A stretch of DNA of 39,166 bases, taken from contig JAIOIK010000203.1 in NCBI GenBank assembly GCA_019912545.1, positions 1 through 39,166 on the forward strand, in the 5' to 3' direction. Of this stretch, positions 25,679 through 29,218 are shown piece after piece. Source of the DNA: Ignavibacteria bacterium (GTDB lineage: Bacteria; Bacteroidota; Ignavibacteria; Tepidaquicellales; OLB5). Within the stretch, counting starts at the first letter, position 1; each line of letters starts with the position of its first letter. The notes under the pieces were generated by a model. It made no database searches, was not told where the DNA came from, and was given only the letters and a program-made list of their open reading frames with translations. Position numbers and translations under genes: made by a program.

Positions 25679-26101
25679 ATGAAATTAGTACTTTCCACAA
25701 TCATTGTTGGTATTATTCTGTTCCTGCTTGGCTGGCTTTCTTACGGCATGGTTCTTGCCGAGTATTTGAAGCCATATTATGGATTTATGCAGCGCCCCGA
25801 TAGCGATATGAAGATCTGGGCATTTGCTCTTGCAAGTTTTGTTCAGGCACTATTCCTATATGTAATTTATAACCAGGGTTATAAGGGAGGTTCTTCTATT
25901 ATCGAAGGATCAAAATTCGGTATTGTTATCGGATTATTTACATCAATTCCATATGTACTCTTTACATGGGGAGGGATGAAAGTGCCGTACAAAGCAGTTA
26001 TTCCGGATGGTATTGCGGTATTCATAATGATGCTGATTGCGGGAATCATCACGGCATTTATCCACGGCAAAAGAGATGTGAAAGTCCTGGAAGGAAAGTA
26101 A
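25679..26101 (+). CDS. Four-helix inner membrane protein, unknown function
   Basis: This is a 140-residue protein with four predicted transmembrane helices at about 3-24, 48-66, 82-102 and 112-131, a short charged tail (HGKRDVKVLEGK) and no catalytic motif. Layout and size resemble DUF1761-type or similar small membrane families, but I cannot assign one. AAGGAGG sits an ideal distance before the ATG, the strongest ribosome site in the window. The second 137-bp repeat begins 46 nt past its stop. Confidence 0.8.
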   Translation: MKLVLSTIIVGIILFLLGWLSYGMVLAEYLKPYYGFMQRPDSDMKIWAFALASFVQALFLYVIYNQGYKGGSSIIEGSKFGIVIGLFTSIPYVLFTWGGMKVPYKAVIPDGIAVFIMMLIAGIITAFIHGKRDVKVLEGK

Positions 26102-26147: not shown

Positions 26148-26284
26148 GAGGCTGTCTCAAAAGTACCATTTTTCAGTGGCACAAACCCGCCTGTACGGGC
26201 AGACATTCTTGTCTGTGATCGTTAAACATAAATGAGGTTTTCGACAGACAAGAATGTCTGTCCCACTTGTTTTGAGCCAGCCTC
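26148..26284. mobile_element. 137-bp MITE-like palindromic repeat, copy 2
   Basis: This is homologous to copy 1 (45-181) in inverted orientation. The left end reads GAGGCTGTCTCAAAAGTACC, and the right end is its inverted repeat with one mismatch in the first 15 bases. The 54-bp core with two facing ACAGACAAGAATGTCTGT-type arms around TTAAACATAAATGAGG is shared. The GC-rich CCCGCCTGTACGGGC segment is on the left arm here and on the opposite arm in copy 1. It lies upstream of a disrupted gene. Confidence 0.78.
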
Positions 26285-26375
26285 TTCTGCTTAATTAAAT
26301 AGGCATAACTCTTTCTACGGAATACCAATTATATGATTGCTATATTGCTGATAAATTGAAAGATTTCCATCTTTA

Positions 26376-27187
26376 ATGTCCATTCTTGCCCGTGAAAAGT
26401 TCGAGCTGAGGCTACTTAAAGCTTCTGATGTTTTAAAGTGTGAGGATAGCGGCTCTTCAAGGCTTGTTGAGCGCTTTGAAAGTGAAAAGGTACTTTACAA
26501 TCCGCTAATAGTTGCGCGCTATGATGGTAAATTCATACATATTGATGGTGCAAATCGCTTCGAAGCATTGAAGAAACTTGATTGTAAAACAATCCTTACA
26601 AAGTTGGTCGATTATGCAGATGCAGATGTACAGCTACGTTCGTGGTATCATTTTGTATCCGAGTTTACGATTCAGGAACTTGCCATATATCTTAACGAAA
26701 GCGGGCTCGTGTACCATGTTTGGAACATGACTGAGGTACCTAACGGGAAAAACTGGATAGGGGTTATCTCCACCAATGATGAAGCTATTTGTAACCGATT
26801 CACAAATGATCTTGGAAAAATGCTGCATGCATTAAGCAGTCTTAACAGGTATTATGAGTCCGGATTCAGCTATACCAAGATTGACAGTGGTTCAGACATT
26901 AATGATATTTCTTCGCTTTCTCCGGATGACGTTCTATTGATAGTCTATCCTGAATTCAGAAAAGAGGATATAGTAAAAACATCAGGTTTTAACCAGAAGT
27001 TACAGCAAGTATATCCCGGCATCTTATCTCCAATCGGGTGCTTCACATGAAAATACTGATAGATGCAATGAAAACGGATGAAAACCTTGATAAGCGCAAT
27101 TATGATCTTGAACAGTTTATTCAATATAAGATAGATACGAAAAAAGTAAGACTCTATAAAGAACCAATTTTGGTTTTCGATGAATGA
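26376..27187 (+). pseudogene. ParB/Srx-fold (SbnI/SerK-like) protein, split by a frameshift
   Basis: The first open frame (26376-27050, 224 residues) has the ParB/sulfiredoxin fold N-terminus: FELRLLKASDVLKCEDSGSS, then IHIDGANRFEALKKL, where DGANR takes the place of the family's DGHHR-type motif. It ends abruptly in an unrelated tail (QQVYPGILSPIGCFT). The following frame reads SISRHLISNRVLHMKILID and continues through 27187 to VRLYKEPILVFDE, which matches the C-terminal pattern (TRHxIxxRxL..., RxYxEPxxxFDE) I expect for SbnI/SerK-type proteins. Restoring one base near 27003 would read KLPASISRHL and give about 270 residues. Intact relatives include free L-serine kinases; whether this one had that activity is unknown. 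A sequencing error is possible. Confidence 0.75.
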
Positions 27188-27251: not shown

Positions 27252-28484
27252 TTGTTTGAGAGATTTATAGCAAGAAGATATCTTCTTTCGAAACGTAAAG
27301 TGCAGTTTATAACGGTTATTACACTTATTTCTGTTATAGGGCTGTCTGTTGGAGTAACTGCCCTAATAGTTATGCTTTCTGTGTTCAACGGATTCAACAA
27401 ATACCAGATAGATACTTTAACAGGATTTGACCCGCATTTGAGAATTGAGTCCGACTCTGGCGGAGTATTGGCGAATTATACCAATTTGATCGACAAAGTT
27501 AAATCAAGCGGCAATATAAGAGCAATCGCGCCATTTACTATGAATAAGGGTGTCATTTCTTCTAAAAAGAATAATGTTGTTGCATTCGTAAAGGGAGTGG
27601 ATGAAAGCAAGATTGAAGGACTCTCAGATATTAAAGAAAAGACTACGCTTGGTGATTTTGAGTTTAATGATAACGATGAAGTGGGCGGAATAATCATAGG
27701 GGGAAGCCTGGCCGGTAAGCTTGAAGCAAGAGTGCTTGATACAATTTCTGTTATGAGTCCTGTTGGAATGGAACGGGCTTTGACGCAGATAGTCACTCCC
27801 AAAACCCAGAAGTTTATTGTCAGGGGGATCTTTGATGCTAATAACCGGGAATACGATAAAATGTACTCATTTGTTTCTATTTCGAAATCTCAAAGTCTAT
27901 ATGATCTTGGCAGCAATGTCAATGGAATTGAGATGAGGCTTAGCGATATAAACAATTCCGAAAGCGAAAAAGAAAATTTGCAGAAAGTTCTTGCCGGCAA
28001 TCCCGGTCTAAAAATAAGTACCTGGTATGACCTGCATGAAGACCTGTATTCTGTAATGCAGGTTGAAAGATGGACTGCCTTCACAGTGCTTTCTTTAATT
28101 ATTGCTGTTGCATCTTTCAGTATAGTTGGCTCACTTACTATGACGGTTATGGAAAAAAGGCGGGACATTGGAATTTTAAAAGCAATGGGAACAAAAAATT
28201 CCGGAATCCTTAGAATTTTTATGTTTGAAGGAATTTTGATCGGAGTATATGGTACTATCATTGGCTCGATCCTTGGATTTATAATTTGCCTGGCACAGAT
28301 CAAATATAAATTTTACCCTCTTGATTCAATGGTCTATTCAATTGATGCTTTGCCGATTGATATAAGATATACTGATTATATTTATGTGGGAATTTGCGCA
28401 ATGATCCTCGCATTCCTGGCATCATTGTATCCCGCGCTTCGGGCAGCGAGGCAGGAACCAATTAAAGCAATCAGGTGGGAATAA
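27252..28484 (+). CDS. lolC: LolC/LolE-type lipoprotein-releasing ABC permease
   Basis: This is a 410-residue inner membrane permease of the lipoprotein release system. The N-terminal FERFIARRYLLSKRKVQFIT is the family signature, followed by TM1 (about 20-45), a periplasmic MacB-like domain (about 46-265), and the FtsX domain with three helices (about 270-300, 320-345, 372-395), including EKRRDIGILKAMGT. Length fits LolC/E (about 400-415). The start is a TTG at 27252, giving the expected M-F-E-x-F-I-A-R-R. LolD follows 44 nt downstream, and with one permease gene the transporter is probably a homodimeric permease. It extracts lipoproteins for transfer to the outer membrane. Confidence 0.93.
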   Translation: MFERFIARRYLLSKRKVQFITVITLISVIGLSVGVTALIVMLSVFNGFNKYQIDTLTGFDPHLRIESDSGGVLANYTNLIDKVKSSGNIRAIAPFTMNKGVISSKKNNVVAFVKGVDESKIEGLSDIKEKTTLGDFEFNDNDEVGGIIIGGSLAGKLEARVLDTISVMSPVGMERALTQIVTPKTQKFIVRGIFDANNREYDKMYSFVSISKSQSLYDLGSNVNGIEMRLSDINNSESEKENLQKVLAGNPGLKISTWYDLHEDLYSVMQVERWTAFTVLSLIIAVASFSIVGSLTMTVMEKRRDIGILKAMGTKNSGILRIFMFEGILIGVYGTIIGSILGFIICLAQIKYKFYPLDSMVYSIDALPIDIRYTDYIYVGICAMILAFLASLYPALRAARQEPIKAIRWE

Positions 28485-28528: not shown

Positions 28529-29218
28529 TTGGACGCTGAAAAAAAAGTAATAATAAAGACAACTGGTTTAATCAAGGAATATAAGATTTCCAAAGACAAA
28601 TCTTTGAGAGTATTAAAAGGAATTGATACCGAAATATTCGAAGGCGAAATTATTACTATTGTCGGTCCATCGGGAGCGGGCAAAAGTACATTCCTTCATC
28701 ATGTCGGCACATTGGATAAACCAACAAGCGGCGATGTCATTTTCGATGGCGAAAATGTCTTCAGGCTTTCAGCTAATGACCTTGCACGATTCCGAAATAC
28801 CCGAATCGGTTTCATTTTCCAGTTTCATCATCTCCTGCCGGAGTTTACTGCTGTGGAAAATGTGTGCATTGCAGCTATGATTTCGGGGAAATCCATGAAG
28901 CAAGTGGAGCCAAGAGCTAAAGAACTTCTTGCCGAAGTCGGTCTGGGTGAGAGGCTTCATCACAAGCCATCGGAGCTTTCCGGCGGGGAAGCACAAAGAG
29001 TGGCAATTGCGCGCGCACTCATAAATTCGCCAAAAGTGATATTGGCCGATGAACCTACAGGTAATCTGGATACAAAGAACAGCGACGAAGTTTTGAATAT
29101 AATATTTGAGCTTCGCAAAAAGTATAACCGGACATTTGTAATAGTAACACATAACGAGAAATTTGCCAGTATGACAGACCGCACACTTAAAATGGTTGAT
29201 GGGCAAATAGTCAATTGA
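28529..29218 (+). CDS. lolD: LolD-type lipoprotein-releasing ABC ATPase
   Basis: This is a 229-residue ATPase partner of the LolC/E-like permease. Walker A is GPSGAGKST (46-54), the Q-loop region FIFQFHHLLPEFTAVENV carries the LolD-type signature, the ABC signature is LSGGEAQR (about 149-156), and Walker B is VILADEPTGNLD with the catalytic Glu. The H-loop is in VIVTHNEKF. The start is TTG at 28529; no ribosome site is clear. Just before it lies a short direct repeat of ATCAATTAAC (28486-28510). ATP hydrolysis drives the release of acylated lipoproteins, of which several are encoded nearby. Confidence 0.95.
   Translation: MDAEKKVIIKTTGLIKEYKISKDKSLRVLKGIDTEIFEGEIITIVGPSGAGKSTFLHHVGTLDKPTSGDVIFDGENVFRLSANDLARFRNTRIGFIFQFHHLLPEFTAVENVCIAAMISGKSMKQVEPRAKELLAEVGLGERLHHKPSELSGGEAQRVAIARALINSPKVILADEPTGNLDTKNSDEVLNIIFELRKKYNRTFVIVTHNEKFASMTDRTLKMVDGQIVN

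Follow-up and report, generated by a model that had tools for sequence, protein, structure and literature searches.

Among the closest known systems to the gene described here is SbnI of Staphylococcus (PDB 6nr6, 5ujd, 5uje; NF033589), an ATP-dependent free serine kinase and regulator in staphyloferrin B synthesis. A second such enzyme, SerK of Thermococcus kodakarensis (TK0378; PDB 5x0b), is an ADP-dependent free serine kinase whose product, O-phosphoserine, goes into cysteine synthesis; this archaeon showed no clear serine acetyltransferase (PMC5120207). The window that we analyzed, a stretch of 39,166 nucleotides, is contig C148 of a draft assembly (3.66 Mb, 206 contigs; genome 99.68% complete) from an uncultured member of the Ignavibacteria, to which the relatives bearing names also belong. 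Its segment 26376-27187 is very probably a pseudogene: a single-copy, vertically inherited SerK/SbnI-like gene (ParB/Srx fold) that was inactivated recently and is still decaying (Table 1).

Table 1. Features at and around the broken SerK/SbnI-like gene.
Feature	Coordinates	Strand	Remarks
DUF1761-like membrane protein, upstream neighbour	25679..26101	+	weak Pfam match; part of the kept gene order
MITE copy	26148..26290	.	inverted ends GAGGCTGTCTCAAAA/TTTTGAG[A/C]CAGCCTC; between the DUF1761-like gene and the broken gene
5' part of the broken SerK/SbnI-like gene	26376..27050	+	224-aa ORF; family match to ~nt 26999 (residue 208), then out-of-frame tail
9-nt in-frame deletion relative to orthologues	26434..26435	+	HEE of the LLHEECEDNR motif gone, and with it the invariant Glu that aligns to SerK E30 / SbnI E20
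Frame-change point	26997..27005	+	one nucleotide fewer than in the nearest orthologue
Detached C-terminus of the same gene, other frame	27002..27187	+	family positions ~215-278; ATG at 27047 opens a 46-residue ORF
LolC/E-type ABC permease, downstream neighbour	27252..28484	+	named from sequence; directly 3' of the SerK-like gene in genus and order
LolD-type ABC ATPase, next gene	28529..29218	+	named from sequence

With the 224-residue protein as query, 42 of 59 related genomes yielded homologues, which, wherever the locus is complete, are encoded in a single open frame of about 273-283 aa; non-detection in two genomes was set aside, since the locus of one lies at a contig end (G011) and the other is only 64% complete (G007). 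The intact orthologues match the SbnI profile at positions 10-274 (E=1e-27), which is nearly full length, and the closest solved structures to an AlphaFold model of the G006 protein (pLDDT 93) are SbnI and SerK. Like SbnI, they possess the LHE and DG(A/V)xR motifs and a C-terminal PAGxxR...R block, and their predicted fold resembles it with a TM of 0.72-0.75; however, they are only ~22-23% identical to SbnI and lie beside lolC/lolD rather than siderophore genes, while the window copy additionally differs from SbnI in having neither the LHE Glu nor an in-frame C-terminus. They also share the fold of SerK (TM 0.70) and an equivalent of its E30, but at 16-17% identity and with sequence similarity mainly in the N-terminal half. 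The core ParB/Srx fold is common to ParB/Noc CTPases and sulfiredoxin (Srx) as well, although the match to these proteins is limited to a core of ~80 residues (TM ~0.25 by query length), and, unlike for ParB/Noc, no parA-like gene was noted beside the SerK-like locus. The intact relatives thus exhibit the overall fold, the full-length similarity, the invariant Glu (SerK E30/SbnI E20) and the DG-motif Asp of the SerK/SbnI kinases, and the family assignment made by the sequence-only reading (SbnI/SerK-like, ParB/Srx) proved right. Nevertheless, the nearest relative scores 80 bits against the SbnI equivalog of NCBIfam (cut-off 350) and 61 bits against that of SerK (cut-off 380), values so far below the cut-offs that we regard the family as a related subfamily and not as SbnI or SerK proper. 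No usable Pfam match to the window ORF was obtained, and intact members gave only weak ParB_N/GmrSD_N matches. The intact relatives are predicted free-L-serine kinases that probably phosphorylate free serine to O-phospho-L-serine. Relatives of the intact family (L135-L179) also occur in MAGs of Chloroflexota, Betaproteobacteria, Eisenbacteria and Armatimonadota.

Alignment with relatives revealed that the similarity of the 224-residue ORF ends near residue 208-212 and that the remaining tail fits nothing, while the frame running from 27002 encodes exactly the C-terminus missing from this ORF, the region in which the family is conserved best. A profile built from 24 intact homologues and run against the window and the genome matched 26376-27002 (profile 1-217, 210.8 bits) and, in the other frame, 26993-27184 (profile 215-278, 92.9 bits, E=5e-26); matches in two frames place the observation of a broken gene far beyond chance. 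The two frames overlap by ATGA at 27047-27050, and the downstream one stops at 27187 in RLYKEPILVFDE. These positions, together with the extent of the 224-residue ORF, had been given correctly by the sequence-only reading, which had also proposed a one-base frameshift and taken the 46-residue frame for the lost C-terminus; the nucleotide alignment and the two-frame profile match bear out both proposals. Its one-base repair, giving KLPASISRHL and about 270 residues, agrees with the length of the relatives, but the junction itself was a guess, and the nearest relative has KLTAGISRHL. A frame break like that of the window is absent from all homologues with a complete locus in the 42 genomes, and in a GTDB set biased by one C-terminal search pattern, 80 of 80 homologues match to the C-terminus in one frame. 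Neither a homologue ending at the 224-residue stop nor the 46-residue piece as a separate gene, for both of which that reading had advised looking, was found among the relatives.

The nearest relative (G006:C80) is 67% and 87% identical to the window over the two protein parts. In the nucleotide alignment with it, the window, as assembled, has one nucleotide fewer at about 27000-27003 and also the 9-nt in-frame deletion, which the earlier reading had missed. Two pairs of residues, H22 and E23 together with D60 and G61, are invariant across 38 homologues from several phyla. The family E23 aligns to SerK E30 and to SbnI E20, the latter of which we take to be the catalytic residue. With its predicted catalytic Glu deleted, the window copy lacks a defining residue of the SerK/SbnI kinases. 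This assignment also draws on SerK, for which PDB titles name crystal structures of the E30A and E30Q mutants with phosphoserine and AMP. The loss extends to other positions: among the 23 residues constant in the 38 homologues, the window copy has lost six (H22, E23, R29, Q79, R171 and G215), whereas intact members, each left out in turn as a control, have lost 0-2. The gene carries at least two coding lesions: the 9-nt deletion takes away the predicted catalytic Glu, and the one-nucleotide loss splits off the conserved C-terminal quarter. At most, a 224-residue protein devoid of both may be made, possibly along with the 46-residue fragment through re-initiation.

The SerK-like gene occupies the same syntenic slot in all members of the genus in which that locus is assembled. 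The genus-wide order, with names based on sequence, is thymidine phosphorylase, nuclease, lipoprotein, outer-membrane protein, (DUF1761-like), SerK-like, lolC, lolD, outer-membrane protein and glycosyltransferase, and the succession of SerK-like gene and lolC is kept across the order. This shared synteny identifies the window gene as the single-copy orthologue rather than a transposed duplicate. The profile search detected no second SerK/SbnI-like copy in the 99.68% complete genome. The gene thus has the features of a unitary pseudogene: its frame is disabled where orthologues in the same position are intact, constraint on it has been lost, and the genome holds no functional duplicate. In another member of the genus (G004), the gene has been cleanly deleted from an otherwise conserved locus (L095, G004:C5:46000-60000, between 6690 and 6849); no trace of it is left at this locus, where the outer-membrane protein gene lies ~160 bp from lolC. 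Two independent losses in one genus, by decay here and by deletion in G004, show that under some conditions these bacteria can do without the gene. In one bin (6% contamination), the entire locus occurs twice (G006:C80 and G006:C129). Given that synteny is the same in both and that the bin is contaminated, the C129 copy was most likely contributed by another organism, hence we did not treat it as a paralogue.

Loss of purifying constraint is evident both against the sister lineage and against the neighbouring genes. At 114 sites invariant in the other genus and family members, 16 changes (two of them due to the deletion) are confined to the window and 2 to the sister G006, while the same count over eight neighbouring genes (1280 sites) gives 20 window-only and 30 sister-only changes (Fisher test, p=3e-4 for 16:2 versus 20:30; when the rates at invariant sites are compared, p=3e-9). 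The dN/dS values relative to the nearest relative are still low (0.10 and 0.05, with dS saturated), and no further in-frame stop is present elsewhere in the ~269 codons; neutral simulation at the observed level of change predicts about 2 stops, with a probability of about 0.14 for none. The lack of additional stops suggests that part of the change may have accrued while the frame was still open, and, together with the low dN/dS, points to a recent decay that followed long selection.

The sequence-only reading had left open whether the locus is a pseudogene, a programmed frameshift or an assembly error. In a 206-contig draft, one might suspect that the gene is functional and its frameshift merely an error of assembly or sequencing, all the more as no other in-frame stop is present, yet we consider this unlikely. 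When 852 proteins from 1.2 Mb of a closed relative (G009) were set against 712 kb of the assembly, 149 conserved genes passed the coverage and identity limits, and the SerK-like gene was the only frame-changed one among them. Moreover, a single wrong base cannot explain the separate loss of catalytic-site and family-invariant residues; correcting the frame would not bring back the catalytic motif. It is very improbable that a new, non-catalytic role has been taken on by the 224-residue protein, either alone or together with the 46-residue piece translated from the ATGA overlap. The open N-terminal frame and the low overall dN/dS would fit such a role, as would the annotation of SbnI itself as both regulator and enzyme, but the strands and helix that the prediction for the intact protein places with good confidence at the C-terminus are gone, the changes are scattered over family-invariant positions, and the gene is wholly lost in G004. 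That programmed ribosomal frameshifting fuses the two open, recognisable and adjacent frames into one active protein is scarcely credible, as every relative encodes the protein in one frame, inspection found no slippery heptamer at the junction, the remaining coding sequence is decaying and the catalytic Glu would be missing even from a fused product. Hence, of the three readings originally left open, the pseudogene is the best supported. The 224-residue and 46-residue ORFs should not be annotated as two real genes.

As a pseudogene, the window gene represents one ordinary case of gene loss; the intact family is of greater interest, as a broadly distributed SerK/SbnI-like clade in bacteria without a recognised serine acetyltransferase. 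Among 19 Ignavibacteria genomes of the order (G000-G014, G016, G018, G022 and G028), none has a CysE (serine O-acetyltransferase, TIGR01172) above the curated cut-off, whereas CysK/CBS-type enzymes are present in all 19. Given these observations and the parallel with SerK, a role of the family in O-phosphoserine supply is plausible but unproven. Tentatively, we speculate that the intact family forms a widespread, uncharacterised clade of bacterial free-serine kinases (Ignavibacteria, Chloroflexota, Betaproteobacteria and other MAGs), which in Ignavibacteria genomes of this kind may provide O-phosphoserine for making cysteine, and which is now disappearing in parallel within one genus. The genome of the window retains a serA-like/serC-like pair (G000:C170), both members of which score below the curated cut-offs. 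Since O-phosphoserine would also be obtainable from 3-phosphoglycerate via this pair, its retention could account for the dispensability of the kinase, whose loss is plausibly tolerated for this reason.

The mobile element that had been noticed next to the broken gene is a genuine MITE; its terminal inverted repeats GAGGCTGTCTCAAAA are ~15 bp long, and a palindrome, CAGACATTCTTGTCTG, lies inside it. A typical copy measures ~120 bp, and the one beside the broken gene is ~140 bp long, with ~20 extra bp and imperfect ends. It lies outside the coding region, and downstream of it follows an 85-bp stretch that is conserved in G006:C80; that relative lacks the MITE at the corresponding place. Sigma-70 scans around the broken gene and the MITE gave only chance-level matches. 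Roughly 30-40 copies of the element are present in the genome of the window and two clear ones in G006; several copies sit at contig ends, hence the MITE probably fragments the assembly. Another copy is found within the window, at 61-181.
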